64,000 nt of DNA from Halobacteriales archaeon YIM A00010 (GTDB lineage Archaea; Halobacteriota; Halobacteria; Halobacteriales; Haloarculaceae): the NCBI GenBank assembly GCA_025041175.1, contig JAKCFJ010000001.1, positions 992,001 through 1,056,000 of the forward strand, given 5' to 3'. The notes under the pieces are model-generated. The model was not told where the DNA came from. It was given only the letters and a program-made list of their open reading frames with translations, and did no database searches. Below are positions 49,217 through 63,929 of the stretch, piece after piece. Position numbers and translations under genes: made by a program. The stretch's first letter is position 1, and each line of letters opens with the position of its first letter.

Positions 49217-49339
49217 TTATTTACGGCCTTGTTGAAATCCTCAATCTGTGATAGGTTTCAGCAGTCCTGCCGAATACAACGCGCGTGTCGGTCATCCTGC
49301 TGCCAAAGAAATATACCCTTTCTCTGATTTCTGGATATA

Positions 49340-49858
49340 ATGGTCGGGTTAGAACGTGGAACCGTGGAGTTGGAGCCGTATCGAGAAGAATGGGCAGACC
49401 TCTACAAAAAAGAGGTACAGCGACTGAAAGATATCGCAGGCAATCGGTTCCTTGATTTCGAGCATATCGGTAGCACCGCTATCGAGGGAATGCCTGCGAA
49501 GCCAATAATCGACATCCTCGCTCTCGTCGAAGATTTGGCCGACGCGAAAGACCTCATTCCCGTCCTCGAAGAACATGGATATGAACACCGACCCGGAGAT
49601 GTAGAAGGACGTCTGTTCTTTGCCAAGGGGCCGCGCACGAATCGCACTGTCTACCTCTCGATCACAGAACGGGAAAGTGATTTTTATGAGGAGAAGATTG
49701 CCTTCCGAGATTATCTTCGAGAGCATTCCGAAGCCGCTGAACAGTATGCCTCCTTGAAAAAGAGATTGGCAAAGCAGTACCCGGAGAACAGAGAGGAATA
49801 CACCGCTGAAAAAGGAGAATTTATTCAGGACATTCTTGACGTGGCGATGAGAGAGTAA
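49340..49858 (+). CDS. GrpB/UPF0157-family nucleotidyltransferase-fold protein
   Basis: A 172-residue protein. VELEPYREEWADLY and FEHIGSTAIEGMPAKPIIDI (the nucleotidyltransferase-like GST...D signature), then HEYRPG-type and RDYLREH blocks, identify the GrpB family. Function is not firmly known; some members are fused to CoaE. It is intact and lies inside the IS5-type element, convergent with the transposase, so it is probable cargo. It is less GC-rich and more Lys-rich than backbone genes, a sign of transfer. Confidence 0.85.
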   Translation: MVGLERGTVELEPYREEWADLYKKEVQRLKDIAGNRFLDFEHIGSTAIEGMPAKPIIDILALVEDLADAKDLIPVLEEHGYEHRPGDVEGRLFFAKGPRTNRTVYLSITERESDFYEEKIAFRDYLREHSEAAEQYASLKKRLAKQYPENREEYTAEKGEFIQDILDVAMRE

Positions 49859-49941
49859 TAACTGCTCTCATAAGACGTACTCTCTATTCGTCTGATCTGC
49901 TGCATACTCCCTCTATATTCAGCAGTCCCTTCCTCTCGGAA

Positions 49942-50811
49942 TCACGGACAGTCGCTCTCCTCGTGTGAAATAGCGAGGCTTCGCTCCAGATTGTGAACGA
50001 TGCACTTGATAACGAGTTCGCGGAACTGCTTCCACCAGAGACGTGATCGGACGAATGCACCGAATTTCTGTTTGATCGCCGCGTTGACCGTCTCGTTCAT
50101 GTTCCTCCTGTGGTAGAGATCGCTGTCCAACCGTGCATTCCAGGCCTTGTGGAGTGAGGTGAACTCACGATGCTTGATGAGTGGTCGAATATCGTGGTCA
50201 CGGGCGAGCTGCCGGAGTTTCTGGTCGTCGTATCCCTTGTCACCGGTCAAGACCGCGATGGACTGTCCGTTCCGTTTCACTACCTGTGACGCAATCTGCG
50301 TATCGTGCTTCCGCGTTGTGGTCACGTGAATATCGAGAACGGCGTTGGTAGCTGTATCGACCAACAGCGTTGTCTTCAACTGCTGGATGGTGAGGTTCGT
50401 TCGCTTCGTGTAGTGAGTTGAGGCATGCGCCCGCTCAAACCCGGACGCATCGATAGCGGTGACACCGTTCAGTGGCAAGTCCGCGAGCGAGACGTTCAGT
50501 AACACTCGCCAGACGGCCATCTCCAAGCGGTCGAACACCTTGCAGAGTGTCGAGGGTGCAGGAATCGAATCGAGATTGAGTGCGTCACGAATGCGAGGCA
50601 TCTCGATGAGTTCGTCAACGAGGTCTCGGTACGTAGTCGTCTTCTTCACTTTGAGACAGAGCAAGACGACGTGCTGGCGGAGCGTGAACCGCTTCCGTGA
50701 ATAGCGTGTCGAGAATCGTGCCACAGCACGGCGAGCCAGCATCATAGCCCGTTCAACGAATCGAAGGAGTCGTGACTTCGGGAGAGCATCCATCTTCCTC
50801 CAGCTACTCAC
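49942..50811 (-). CDS. IS5-family transposase (DDE)
   Basis: A 289-residue complete transposase with catalytic residues D121 (TAIDASGF), D191 (LTGDKGYDD) and E240 (NMNETVNAAIKQKFG). The N-terminal part (RKRFTLRQHVVLLCLKVKK) is the DNA-binding region. It starts 36 bases inside the right terminal repeat. With both ends and the target duplication intact, it is probably recently active. Confidence 0.92.
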   Translation of the reverse strand: MSSWRKMDALPKSRLLRFVERAMMLARRAVARFSTRYSRKRFTLRQHVVLLCLKVKKTTTYRDLVDELIEMPRIRDALNLDSIPAPSTLCKVFDRLEMAVWRVLLNVSLADLPLNGVTAIDASGFERAHASTHYTKRTNLTIQQLKTTLLVDTATNAVLDIHVTTTRKHDTQIASQVVKRNGQSIAVLTGDKGYDDQKLRQLARDHDIRPLIKHREFTSLHKAWNARLDSDLYHRRNMNETVNAAIKQKFGAFVRSRLWWKQFRELVIKCIVHNLERSLAISHEESDCP

Positions 50812-50936
50812 TAGTCATGTTTGTCAGCAAGGGATTCAACAAGGCCTTATTTACATATTCCGATCAATCATATTGATACAGAGAATCAGTCTCATTGGTT
50901 TGGAATACAAGGGAATCGATTCGGTTCAGTCACACC

Positions 50937-57181: not shown

Positions 57182-57547
57182 CCCATCGGTCGATTCATTG
57201 ACCTGGTCGAGACAGCAGAGACGTTGCGCGGGTTCGGCACAGTACCGCTTGACCAGGCCGGCATAGAGGCAATCCTTCGGAACACTGTCGACGGGATGGA
57301 GTCGGAGCTCGTCCTCTCACCCACCGCCATTGAAGGCATCCGAACCTCCTACTCCGCAGAAGCTACAGCAGCCGCAGAGAGCGGTGAATTCACCCTCCAG
57401 CTCCACGACGATCTTCCGTCTGAGATATGGAGTGGAATCAGCATCTTCGATGACCGGATCGCGGTCTGCTGTTGTGACCGTGACACCGGGTTGTTCCGGC
57501 TCATCGTCGATACCGACGCATGGGTTTCAGCGGACATGCTGAATAGA
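57182..57547 (+). pseudogene. Winged-helix regulator C-terminal fragment, paralogue 2
   Basis: The sequence PIGRFIDLVETAETLRGFGT, then ILRNTVDGMESELVLSPTAI and FTLQLHDDLPSEIWSGISIF corresponds to the C-terminal domain of the regulators at 53.0 and 59.2 kb. The DNA-binding N-terminus is missing and the C-terminus breaks near 57530. The join to the methyltransferase fragment is a deletion scar. Confidence 0.65.
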
Positions 57548-57610
57548 GGGCGTGTATGCTGCAATCACTACTGTGTATTCAGTGGTATGAAGGCTGCCGA
57601 ATGTAATTTC

Positions 57611-59011
57611 TTAGGTAGTGGGCTCAATATTCTGGTTCATCTGGAACAGATTCTCGGAGTCGTACTCGTCTTTGAGCTCGACCAACCGCTCATACGCCGG
57701 GCCAAACGTAGTCTGCATCATCTCGTCCCCCTCCTCGTGGAAGCCGGGGAAGTTCAAGTAGACCGACCCATCGGAGAACTGGCGCATGTCGTCGAGGCAG
57801 TCTCGGACCCACTCGACGTTGGCGTCGTCGATTTCGGGGTCCTCCCAGTTAGCCTCCACCCCGAGAAGGAACGGTGCGTGCCGCCCGGCGAAGGCACTCT
57901 CCTCGATACCGACATCCGTAATCGCACCCCCGAGCTGCCAGACATCGACTGTCGATAACGGTGAGGGAGCGGCCTGAGCCCAGTATGCGATGCGGTCGAT
58001 GGCGGTGTCCGAAAGTCCGTCGAGGTACAGCGATTTCCAGTAGTACCGCATCCCGTCGGGGTAGTCCTCATCGAGGAGTTGCTGGAACTCGGCATAGGGC
58101 ATCGTCCCGCTGAAATCAGCGATCGGATCAGCGAACTCCCGTAGGGGCTCCAGTTCGGACTCTCCCTCGTCGGCAGGGCCGGCATAACAGCCCATGATGG
58201 CAAACTTCTGTTCGTGGACCCACTCAGCAGGGAACATCTCCTCTTCCGGAAGCTCGCCAGCGAAGACGAGCGTACTGATCTCGTCGGGAGCCTTCACAAC
58301 AAACGCCTGGTAGGCCCGCAACACCTCGGTCAGCCGGTCACCTGGATAAAACACGAGGCTGGTCGCTACGTCCGGGCCGACAGGGTGAAGCTCGTACTCG
58401 AATCCAGTGACGATACCGAAGTTGCCACCGCCCCCACGCAACCCCCAAAACAGGTCTTCGTTCTCGTCGGCGCTGGCCGTCAGGTACTCGCCCTCCGCCG
58501 TGACCAGCTTGGCCGAACGGAGGTTGTCACAACTCAGGCCGTACTTGCAGCGCAGGTGTCCGATTCCACCACCGAGCGTCAACCCGGCGATCCCGGTGTC
58601 CGAAACGACGCCGCCGGGCGTCGCTAGGCCGAACGCCTGTGTTTCGTGGTCGAGATCTGCCCATGTGGCACCGGCCTGGCCCCACACCGTCCGTGCCTCT
58701 GGATCGACCCTGATGCCGGTCATCTTCGAGAGATCGATGACGAGCCCATCATCGCAGACGGCCGTGCCGGCAACGTTGTGCCCGCCGCCACGCACCGCCA
58801 CGAGAAGATCGTTCTCGCGGGCGAAATTCACGGCACTGATGACGTCCGCGGCATCCGCACACCGCGCAATGAGTCCTGGCCGTTTGTCGATCATCCCGTT
58901 CCAGACGGCGCGGGCGTCGTCGTAGTCCGGATCGTCGGGGCGGATCAGGTCTCCGTGGAATCCGTCTTCGAACTGTTCGAGCTGTTCGTCGTCGATTTCG
59001 TGCTGTGCCAT
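57611..59011 (-). CDS. FAD-linked oxidase (BBE-type), paralogue 2
   Basis: A 466-residue flavoprotein, MAQHEIDDEQLEQFEDGFHG. It has AVRGGGHNVAGTAVCDDGLV with the FAD-binding His, GLTLGGGIGHLRCKYGLSCD in the flavin loop, and a C-terminal YERLVELKDEYDSENLFQMN box. It is the same family as paralogue 1 but clearly diverged, and transcribed toward it. The start 42 bases inside the open frame matches the paralogue N-terminus. Substrate unknown. Confidence 0.88.
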   Translation of the reverse strand: MAQHEIDDEQLEQFEDGFHGDLIRPDDPDYDDARAVWNGMIDKRPGLIARCADAADVISAVNFARENDLLVAVRGGGHNVAGTAVCDDGLVIDLSKMTGIRVDPEARTVWGQAGATWADLDHETQAFGLATPGGVVSDTGIAGLTLGGGIGHLRCKYGLSCDNLRSAKLVTAEGEYLTASADENEDLFWGLRGGGGNFGIVTGFEYELHPVGPDVATSLVFYPGDRLTEVLRAYQAFVVKAPDEISTLVFAGELPEEEMFPAEWVHEQKFAIMGCYAGPADEGESELEPLREFADPIADFSGTMPYAEFQQLLDEDYPDGMRYYWKSLYLDGLSDTAIDRIAYWAQAAPSPLSTVDVWQLGGAITDVGIEESAFAGRHAPFLLGVEANWEDPEIDDANVEWVRDCLDDMRQFSDGSVYLNFPGFHEEGDEMMQTTFGPAYERLVELKDEYDSENLFQMNQNIEPTT

Positions 59012-59158
59012 ATAATATCGAAGGACTGCCTGGGCTTTGGCCTCACCTATCAAGCAGCGTTCGATGGCGTGAACAGCGTTTCGGCACGTGAGACGTGTTT
59101 CAATTCATGATAGGAAGAGCTACTATCTGTGCTCCCGTATCTTAACAGAGGGATTTCC

Positions 59159-60073
59159 ATGGAGCCCCACAAAGACGAAACGGACTCCGAAGACTCGACT
59201 CCGCCACCAGGCTCACTGGTCCTGGAGGCTCTTCTGGAGAACGCGCGAAATCAGCAGCATCTCGGCCAGCGCCTGGACGCGGCGGGCGACCGCGTCGACA
59301 CGGATCTGCTCGGCGATATCGTCCGGCATGGGCCAGTACTAGAAGCGCTTCGTCAGGAGCCACTCGACCGAGGAGAGATCGAGGAACGTCTCGACGTCTC
59401 GCGGGCGACGAGCCACCGCTTCACTCAGTGGCTCGACGAGCAGGGTTTCGTCGAGAAGGTCGACGGCCGGTTTCAGTTGACCGGGCGGGGCGAGGCTGTC
59501 GCCGACGAGATGCTCCGGTTCGAGGCGAATGTGCGAACCGTCCACCGGATGGCGCCGCTGCTGGATATTATCTGTGAAGACCACCAGGAGTTCGTCGTCG
59601 AACCGTTCGTCGACGCGACGGTCACCGTCGCCAAGCCGGATGATCCGTACCAGCCGGTCGAGCGGTTTATCTCGCTGGTAGACGAATCGAACACCTTCCG
59701 CGGATTCAATACGACGCACATGGCACCCCTTGTTTTAGGTGAATTCCACCAGCGGGTGTTCGACAGAACCGACACCGAAATCATCTACCTTCCCCACATC
59801 GTCGAGAAACTCTTCGAGACGTATCCGACACAGGCGACCCAGGCGATCGAGAGAGACCACCTTACCCTCCGGATGCGCGACGATCTTCCCTACGGACTCG
59901 CCATCTTCGACGAGCGTGTGGGAATCGGTGGATACGATGAGTCGACGGGCATGATGCAGGTGTTTGTCGACACGGAATCACCCATCGCTCGCGAGTGGGC
60001 CGAGCGCGTCTACGCGACGGTCAGAGATGACTCCGAACCGCTCGCTGACGAACGAATTGATTCGATCCACTGA
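59159..60073 (+). CDS. Winged-helix transcriptional regulator, paralogue 3
   Basis: A 304-residue protein with a polar N-terminal ~60 residues. The winged helix (VLEALRQEPLDRGEIEERLD, then VSRATSHRFTQWLDEQGFVE) and the long C-terminal domain (PYQPVERFISLVDESNTFRG; LRMRDDLPYGLAIFDERVGI) match the 53.0-kb gene. It is divergent from flavin-oxidase paralogue 2, which it probably regulates. Confidence 0.83.
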   Translation: MEPHKDETDSEDSTPPPGSLVLEALLENARNQQHLGQRLDAAGDRVDTDLLGDIVRHGPVLEALRQEPLDRGEIEERLDVSRATSHRFTQWLDEQGFVEKVDGRFQLTGRGEAVADEMLRFEANVRTVHRMAPLLDIICEDHQEFVVEPFVDATVTVAKPDDPYQPVERFISLVDESNTFRGFNTTHMAPLVLGEFHQRVFDRTDTEIIYLPHIVEKLFETYPTQATQAIERDHLTLRMRDDLPYGLAIFDERVGIGGYDESTGMMQVFVDTESPIAREWAERVYATVRDDSEPLADERIDSIH

Positions 60074-60122
60074 GAGTTTCTCGCTGGGTGCTTCATGCGT
60101 TGCAGGAGGAAAAGGCAAATAT

Positions 60123-60431
60123 GGCTCTGCTGAATGGATTCTCTGCATTCATCAGACGGTTCCAGTCAATATCGTAGCGGTTCGGCACTGTCCGTATGGA
60201 TCAGGAGAGTGCCGTTTCGATGTTGTGAACGATGCATTTGATGGCGAGCTCACGGAACTGTTTCCACCAGACACGCGAGCGGACGAATGATCCAAATTTC
60301 TGCTTGATTACCGCATTCACTGTCTCGCTCGCGGTGCGTTGATTGTAGAGGTCAGTATCCAACCGAGCGTTCCATGCCTCGTGGAGTGGTGTGAGCTCGC
60401 GGTGTTTGATGAGTGGTTGCACATTATTCAT
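60123..60431 (-). mobile_element. Remnant of an IS5-family element
   Basis: 60201-60431 encodes the last ~76 residues of a transposase related to the intact one (PLIKHRELTPLHEAWNARLD, ASETVNAVIKQKFGSFVRSR). GGCTCTGCTGAAT at 60123 resembles its terminal repeat. The upstream 70% of the transposase and the other end are gone. Confidence 0.75.
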
Positions 60432-62524: not shown

Positions 62525-62914
62525 ATGGCAAGAGACGACCGTGCGTCGATCAAAGTCCATCTGCCACGGTGGCAGAAACAGCGATGGGTTGCCAACGCCG
62601 AACAGCTCGACATGAGTCAAAGCGAGTTCGTCCGATCGATGGTGCAGGCCGGGCGTCGCGGTGCCTCGGAGACATCGGTGGAGACCGGTTCCGACGGTGC
62701 TACCCCTAGGGGTGAGGACCTCGAAGCACGCGTCCTCGACGTGCTCCGGAGTTCGGACGCCGACCACCTCGGTTGGGAGGAACTCCTCGCCGGCGTGACC
62801 GACGACATCGAGGCACAACTCGAAGCGACGCTGGATTCGCTTCAGGAAGCAAACCGAATCAAATACAGCGGCCGAAACGGCGGCTACACGACGCACGATG
62901 AAGGCTCGAACTGA
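62525..62914 (+). CDS. DUF5805-like small protein upstream of integrase
   Basis: A 129-residue protein, MARDDRASIKVHLPRWQKQR with LDMSQSEFVRSMVQAGRRG. The N-terminal strand-helix-helix pattern looks like a ribbon-helix-helix DNA-binding module. The C-terminal part (ARVLDVLRSSDADHLGWEEL, then LEATLDSLQEANRIKYSG) looks like a winged helix. It overlaps the recombinase start by 17 bases, so they are translationally coupled. A directionality or regulatory role for the recombinase is inferred. Confidence 0.78.
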   Translation: MARDDRASIKVHLPRWQKQRWVANAEQLDMSQSEFVRSMVQAGRRGASETSVETGSDGATPRGEDLEARVLDVLRSSDADHLGWEELLAGVTDDIEAQLEATLDSLQEANRIKYSGRNGGYTTHDEGSN

Positions 62915-63929
62915 CACGGATCACGCCGATCCGATCGCGTATTTCATCGACGACCTCACCTACCACGGGAAATCCGAGCGCACGCTCGAAGCCTACGAGC
63001 GGGTGCTCCGTCGCTTCGAGCGGTTTCTGGCCGAGCGTGACGCCACTCCAGCAACCGCCGGCCAGCGCGACTGCATGGCGTTCGTCCACTCGCTCCGGGA
63101 CTCCCTCGCAGCGAGTACCGTTGCGACGTACGCCTCCTACGTTCACCGATTTTACGCCTACATGACACAGACGGAGGTGCTCGATGCGAATCCAATGACG
63201 CTCGTGATGGCCGAGATGGACGAATCCATCGAGACGGATCCGGCGCGGCGTGAGATCTCGATCGAGGAGATGCGCGCGTTTCTCGGGGACATCAGCCATC
63301 CACTGGAACGAACGGTTACGGTGTTGCTCCTGAAGACGGGCCTACGCGTCGGGGAGTGTTGTAATCTGGATCTTCGGGATCTCAATCTCGACGCGCCGGA
63401 TATCCGTGCGGAGTACGACTACACCCACCGGCCACAGTTGGACGGACGGCCGGACACACTGTTCGTCTCGAACGGCATCGCCACTGGAGAGACCGTCAAC
63501 GGCGAAGAGCGGACCGCCTCGAACAAACGAAAGCGGATAACCATGGTCCCCGTCGACGCGGAGCTAAAAGAGATGCTCACCACGTGGCTCGCGATCCGTC
63601 CGGATACGCCATCACCCGCAGATCCGTTGTTCGCCGATACCGGCCGAAAGTGGGGACACCGACTCGAACCGTCGCAAGTGCGGACATTCGTCCGAAAGCA
63701 CGCCGAGGAACGAGGGTGGTACCGCGTTGGTGGAGGAGCATCGGAGAACGTCACGCCACACTACTTCCGGCATTTTTTCACCACCTATCTCCGCGACCGG
63801 ACCGGCGATCGTGGAATCGTGAAATACCTCCGAGGCGACGTGGCACAGGATGTAATCGACACCTACACCCACGATTGGGGGAACCGTGTTCGGTCGGTGT
63901 ACGAATCAAAAATCTATTCACTTCTGTAG
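62898..63929 (+). CDS. Tyrosine recombinase (XerC/D-like integrase)
   Basis: A 343-residue recombinase with a SAM-like core-binding domain (TYHGKSERTLEAYERVLRRF) and a catalytic domain. Catalytic residues are R150 (GLRVGE), H288/R291 (HYFRH), H325 (YTHDWGNR) and nucleophile Y335. All are present, so it should be active. It could resolve chromosome dimers or serve an integrated element; no attachment site is visible in the window. Confidence 0.9.
   Translation: MKARTDTDHADPIAYFIDDLTYHGKSERTLEAYERVLRRFERFLAERDATPATAGQRDCMAFVHSLRDSLAASTVATYASYVHRFYAYMTQTEVLDANPMTLVMAEMDESIETDPARREISIEEMRAFLGDISHPLERTVTVLLLKTGLRVGECCNLDLRDLNLDAPDIRAEYDYTHRPQLDGRPDTLFVSNGIATGETVNGEERTASNKRKRITMVPVDAELKEMLTTWLAIRPDTPSPADPLFADTGRKWGHRLEPSQVRTFVRKHAEERGWYRVGGGASENVTPHYFRHFFTTYLRDRTGDRGIVKYLRGDVAQDVIDTYTHDWGNRVRSVYESKIYSLL

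Follow-up and report, generated by a model that had tools for sequence, protein, structure and literature searches.

A grpB-carrying IS5-type element of a haloarchaeon and the extensive family of cassette-bearing elements, apparently not yet described, to which it belongs

Introduction

Integrons and their gene cassettes have also been reported from MAGs of archaea (PMC9668308); the terms 'Halobacter', 'haloarchaea' and 'Halobacteriota' do not appear in the main text of this paper. In Acinetobacter, plasmids carry p-dif modules, which are delimited by 28-bp sites with an 11-6-11 layout (PMC6449649, PMC13141974). Archaeal dif, a single dimer-resolution site of 11-6-11 layout, has been predicted in Thermococcales and Sulfolobales (PMC2958812, PMC8371274). 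For haloarchaea, a review of replication and repair in Haloferax volcanii takes XerC/D-like genes to suggest possible dif sites and adds nothing further. No description of passenger genes of insertion sequences (IS), of cassettes or of dif in haloarchaea was found in the searched literature, preprints and most subscription journals lying outside the search.

It is well known that haloarchaea exchange genes on a large scale. To our knowledge, the usual carriers, namely plasmids, viruses and IS elements, fail to explain a movement of single metabolic, transport and surface genes with clean borders. Here, an element carrying grpB is described together with its relatives in other Halobacteria; the comparisons are based on a sample of one genome per species.

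Results

The window, a stretch of 64,000 nucleotides from the genome of Halobacteriales archaeon YIM A00010, contains at 49225-50846 an IS5-type element of 1,622 bp with an intact transposase gene and an intact grpB inside. Its features are the following:

49217..49224, no strand: target duplication, left copy TTATTTAC
49225..49266, plus strand: left end (LE) outside the box, with terminal repeat GGCCTTGTTGAA... and conserved subterminal sequence
49267..49295, plus strand: L-box, 11-7-11, with outer arm CTGCCGAATAC, spacer AACGCGC and inner arm GTGTCGGTCAT
49296..49896, plus strand: cassette interior, grpB and its own upstream region
49340..49858, plus strand: grpB, 172 aa, PF04229
49897..49925, minus strand: R-box, 11-7-11 as read on the minus strand, with outer arm CTGCTGAATAT, spacer AGAGGGA and inner arm GTATGCAGCAG
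49942..50811, minus strand: IS5-family DDE transposase, 289 aa
50822..50846, minus strand: right end with terminal repeat, adjoining the transposase start
50847..50854, no strand: target duplication, right copy TTATTTAC

The termini GGCCTTGTTGAAATCCT and GGCCTTGTTGAATCCCT (the latter on the other strand) match each other with 20-nt arms that are 85% complementary, and outside of both ends lies the perfect 8-bp target duplication TTATTTAC (49217-49224 and 50847-50854). Terminal inverted repeats and a target duplication of fixed length (8 bp) characterise the element as an IS5-family insertion sequence; duplications of 8 bp are typical of the ISH1 group, an ISfinder subgroup of this family. The transposase scores 213 bits against the NCBIfam model NF033579 (transpos_IS5_2; cut-off 140) and matches PF01609 (E=3.1e-16), which identifies it as an IS5-family DDE transposase, and the GrpB protein matches PF04229 with E=7.6e-49. 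The duplication, the matching ends and the two intact genes had been pointed out in an earlier note on this DNA, and all of them were confirmed in the sequence and by profile matches. The extent given there (49217-50855) is correct at its left border and one base too far at its right border, as the duplication ends at 50854. No second good copy of the element exists in the same genome (5.97 Mb, 7 contigs), where the remaining transposase matches are relatives of about 70-78% identity or fragments, and GrpB peptide patterns did not match the genome contigs.

Relatives of the element are widespread in Halobacteria. A profile of the 72-bp left end, which scores 70 bits on the left end in the window (49225..49266), was found in 192 of 242 Halobacteria genomes and in 63 of 73 genera, and in a sample of the phylum all 36 left-end-positive genomes belonged to the order of the window's host, with none outside of this order. 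The transposase part (about 49897-50846) occurs with 83-94% identity, and lacking grpB, in approximately 28 of 391 Halobacteria genomes. In many of these genomes, a BLAST search with the locus edges revealed that the first ~63 bp of the element match a second time, at a distance of 0.6-1.4 kb from the transposase; in longer stretches a left end (~65 bp) carrying the terminal repeat of the element lay 0.6-5.8 kb from it. In these relatives the 8 bp outside the left end repeat those outside the right end. Among elements recognised by the left-end profile, with as well as without a transposase, 26 have a perfect 8-bp duplication and seven have one with a single mismatch, and since the same ends are thus flanked by duplications in 26 + 7 relatives, the duplication in the window is more than a chance repeat. 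All of these elements hold an interior between their ends. Two architectures were observed: left end, cargo, transposase and right end (type 1), or left end, cargo and a right end resembling the left end, lacking the transposase (type 2). Among copies with both ends, none had the left end joined directly to the transposase. In some short transposase-less copies the interior is only a few hundred bases with no long reading frame, and several transposase copies had no left end that was recognisable in the first scans.

The earlier note had interpreted the locus as an IS5 copy of about 960 bp that gained grpB through a splice at the 11-bp repeat TTCAGCAGTCC (49257-49267 and 49918-49928), and had proposed GrpB as a new class of cargo. 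The view of an IS5-type element with a grpB passenger between its ends holds, and the duplication, both intact genes and the two copies of the repeat are indeed present. A one-off capture is nevertheless contradicted by the relatives, as every intact one holds cargo in the same slot, in most cases other genes, and GrpB is one among many cargoes and no special class. A cargo-free parent of ~960 bp was not present among the copies with both ends, and in 116 Haloarculaceae genomes, where the flanks are not conserved, no empty site was seen. The note had itself named grpB with the same left flank but without the transposase as a finding that would speak against the capture, and exactly this is seen in a 731-bp element (L068), whose grpB match of 80% identity begins inside the left end. 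As to the repeat, the left end contains a palindromic stretch (TTCAGCAG-TC-CTGCTGAA in relatives) whose left half is the left copy; the right copy equals, in reverse complement, the outer arm of the R-box plus a few bases beyond it. Because both copies recur in elements with unrelated cargo, the repeat does not record the arrival of grpB; it is part of the boxes and not a splice scar. With the relatives, the transposase-less element and the distribution of the repeat all opposing it, capture by a single IS5 copy through an illegitimate splice is hardly credible.

Each cargo is bordered by two imperfect palindromes, an L-box and an R-box, of 11-7-11 layout. The boxes were recognised by aligning left ends and transposase-side borders. 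In the 79 complete cassettes, the arms are complementary at a spacer of 7 in 5.9 of 11 positions (L) and 6.7 of 11 positions (R), compared to 2.75 (sd 0.17) after shuffling, and at spacers of 5, 6 or 8 the complementarity is at background or lower. Read from outside into the cassette, the spacer is mostly AGRGCGC in L-boxes and mostly AGAGGRT or AGAGCGT in R-boxes. The box weight matrix, a profile built from these same elements, gave 150 L and 150 R matches of ≥12 bits in 40 regions and no match after shuffling. Of the 86 cassettes, 79 are bordered by a single L-box and a single R-box that face inward. In two elements with distinct transposases (L065 near 1268, L067 near 1235) the inner arm of the R-box is replaced by the same sequence, GGGCCTTGTTTAGACGC, which represents either a cassette end common to both or a further insertion into the box.

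The cassettes measure 0.2-4.9 kb and mostly contain a single gene, with a range of cargo from metal transporters to P450; many elements carry cargo without a transposase. Cassette genes include those for type IV pilin, amine oxidase, multicopper oxidase, MgtE, cytochrome P450, PHO4 phosphate permease, calcineurin-like phosphoesterase, GNAT, formate/nitrite transporter, TrkA-C, TrkH, MMPL, CNNM, CAAX protease, PQQ propeller and methyltransferase, and many others have no Pfam match. As the genes face both directions (46 versus 29), they probably have their own promoters. GrpB is the cargo of three cassettes: the one in the window, that of L068 and that shared by L071 and L072, in which grpB has the opposite direction. 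Box-free grpB in three further loci (L069, L070, L073) and on pHS4 of Halobacterium salinarum resembles an ordinary gene. With three such cassettes, one of them reversed, and box-free copies elsewhere, we infer that grpB was taken up into cassettes at least twice. The element in the window is thus a simple, intact, one-cassette member of a larger family, its slot being filled by grpB.

A cassette may stand alone or belong to an array; arrays reach about thirty cassettes, with at least 28 chained in one orientation. Where two cassettes meet, an R-box, a linker and an L-box follow each other, and in approximately 30 distinct junctions a distance of 38 bp, rarely 39 bp, separates the reference points of the two boxes. 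A profile of the linker had matches in 127 of 194 genomes. In the largest array all 28 strong linkers lie on one strand within ~37 kb; its genome (G056) belongs to a genus (g24) that, according to a plasmid match, includes Haloprofundus halobius and H. salinisoli. Further arrays of one orientation have 10 of 10 linkers (G175), 8 of 8 and 7 of 7 (both G022), and another one has 10+3. An element with a perfect 8-bp duplication (L056) illustrates how cassettes are combined: it holds three cassettes and two linkers with sites of alternating orientation, and its first cassette matches what the L047 element carries (94.7% over 2,815 bp), its second what the L058 element carries (91.9%), the third being joined by a linker. 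In G175 two integrases, 54% identical to each other, lie one at each end of the array (L228:5471-6520, L229:2024-3139); such a pair is absent at the other arrays examined.

This arrangement bears on the idea that each cassette is a small transposon with box-like ends which inserts into a target within the element. The mutual inversion of the two boxes, as in terminal repeats, would fit. However, the outer flanks are inverted and not direct repeats, hence no target duplication is seen, the linker always comes with the inserted unit, and the outer arms of one and the same cassette differ between places, which makes such transposons very unlikely.

The borders of the mobile segment were located with cassettes that recur in unrelated contexts, where homology ends inside the boxes. 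The PHO4 phosphate-permease cassette is found with 87-100% identity in about a dozen places in five families, and also as a relic in the genome of the window. When nine of its contexts are compared pairwise, identity is 34% in the 60 bp outside, rises to 76% for the outer arm and 78% for the spacer, reaches 96% for the inner arm and is 86% deeper inside the cassette; in vertical relatives (65-75%) the match begins only at about the coding start. Breaks at both boxes were also observed for cassettes shared by L056 and L173 (91.9% over 1,993 bp; 15% and 23% outside), by G056 and L143 (83% over 905 bp) and by L128 and L210 (91% over 445 bp). The grpB cassettes of L071 and L072 are 99.4% identical over 870 bp between differing ends. 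Homology breaks within the boxes are what site-specific exchange in the spacer predicts. In the window, it is the L-box inner arm GTGTCGGTCAT that travels with the cassette. The ends around the grpB cassette of L072 (6517-7433) are strongly diverged, hinting at further end families.

Homologous recombination between conserved left ends, linkers and transposase segments could also shuffle cassettes, and the boxes would then be conserved edges or binding sites of the transposase. Left ends and linkers are repeated within a genome, and haloarchaea, as is generally known, recombine readily. Nevertheless, homology stops in the boxes even where the sequence outside has an identity of 15-30%, and this mechanism leaves unexplained both the linker of exactly 38 bp per added cassette and the strict 11-7-11 symmetry, in which L-boxes and R-boxes have spacers of their own. 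As the general mode of cassette movement it therefore appears unlikely. Some exchanges could still originate from homologous recombination in the outer arms or linkers, since these are conserved repeats.

Discussion

The grpB element is a small member of a large and apparently undescribed haloarchaeal family, and we consider it very probable that this family consists of cassette transposons moving at two levels, by IS5-type transposition of the unit and by site-specific recombination of its cassettes. For the first level, transposition of the whole unit with an 8-bp duplication is established as far as a comparison of related sequences allows, and the same degree of certainty applies to the fixed cassette borders inside the boxes and to the fixed linkers in arrays. 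The unit between left and right end would jump by its own IS5-type transposase, which for transposase-less copies would presumably be supplied in trans. The cargo genes would represent cassettes between an L-box and an R-box as 11-7-11 inverted-repeat sites, at which a recombinase, most likely a tyrosine recombinase acting in trans, would exchange strands within the 7-bp spacer. Inner arms would stay with the cassette, and outer arms would remain in place, on the left end, on a linker or on the side of the transposase. The tyrosine type is suggested by the 11-7-11 layout, and the action in trans by the lack of a recombinase gene consistently linked to arrays. None of the recombinases could be assigned to the boxes: the integrases found near arrays in G175, G022 and G056 are not of one family, and no integrase lies near the largest array. 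The mobile form may be a circle of a cassette and one 38-bp linker, which would recombine L-box with L-box or R-box with R-box; in the sample, with its one genome per species, neither circles nor differences within a species were seen. As each such insertion would add one cassette and one linker, arrays of the same orientation would result.

As in integrons, most cassettes of the haloarchaeal elements contain one gene, their functions vary, a conserved site separates them in long arrays, and transposons carry them. Unlike in integrons, each cassette has two distinct sites (L and R) around a 38-bp linker, and the genes face both ways. None of nine array-bearing genomes contained an integron integrase IntI (TIGR02249) over the cut-off, G056 and G019 being without even a weak match, and in four tested linkers no significant attC-like single-strand hairpin was predicted (z-scores of -1.8 to +0.5 versus shuffles). 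An identity with integrons was rejected on these two grounds.

As in p-dif modules, adaptive genes lie between inverted-repeat sites in inverse orientation (79 of 86 cassettes; alternation in L056), modules are chained and a recombinase would act in trans. Unlike in p-dif modules, the spacer has 7 and not 6 bp, with box symmetry at this length only, the site sequences are unrelated and the cassettes sit inside IS5-type ends. With 11-7-11 instead of 11-6-11 sites, plain dif modules were dismissed as well; a match to a host dif was not found. Archaeal Xer/dif resembles the haloarchaeal system in its inverted-repeat site of 28-29 bp and in the tyrosine recombinase, which is suspected here. Of eight tested genomes that lack good left ends, six have no solitary palindromic box in the chromosome, so that the idea of the box being the haloarchaeal dif is, in its simple form, unsupported; a description of a haloarchaeal dif for comparison was not found. 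In common with insertion sequences with passenger genes and with MITEs, there is cargo within terminal repeats, a target duplication and transposase-less copies. Unlike in these, the cargo is exchangeable at internal recombination-like sites, arrayed and present in every intact copy seen.

It seems likely that haloarchaea possess a cassette system of their own, unrelated to integrons and dif modules, in which a recombinase inserts and shuffles cassettes at paired L and R sites and IS5-type ends move the arrays. If true, genes would flow through Halobacteria by a major route that has had no name until now, one that offers gene movement with clean borders in most sampled genomes of the class. 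Whatever is flanked by an L-box and an R-box could be predicted to be mobile, and integron-like gene shuffling would have arisen in archaea with different sites. The box sites could serve as substrate in a search for the recombinase and possibly as a genetic tool for halophiles.

Further sites in the genome of the window

A second, decayed member of the family (57536-60417) lies in the window, 8 kb downstream of the grpB element, with the following features:

57536..57564, plus strand: L-box
57565..60126, plus strand: cassette
57611-59011, minus strand: FAD/BBE oxidase (cargo)
59129-60073, plus strand: FilR1-type regulator (cargo)
60127..60155, minus strand: R-box
60223..60417, minus strand: transposase relic, DNA 78% identical

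Near the right end of the window there is a tyrosine recombinase gene (62898-63929; 343 aa, PF00589), whose product has no close kinship to the integrases beside arrays elsewhere. A lone perfect palindromic box (TGCTGAATA...TATTCAGCA) is located at C2:593550-593576 of the same genome; no cassette is detectable there, and it could be an empty or secondary site. At C4:570215 (L158:8244-8282) the genome also contains the relic of an array, in which a well-conserved linker is followed by half of the PHO4 cassette known from other families.
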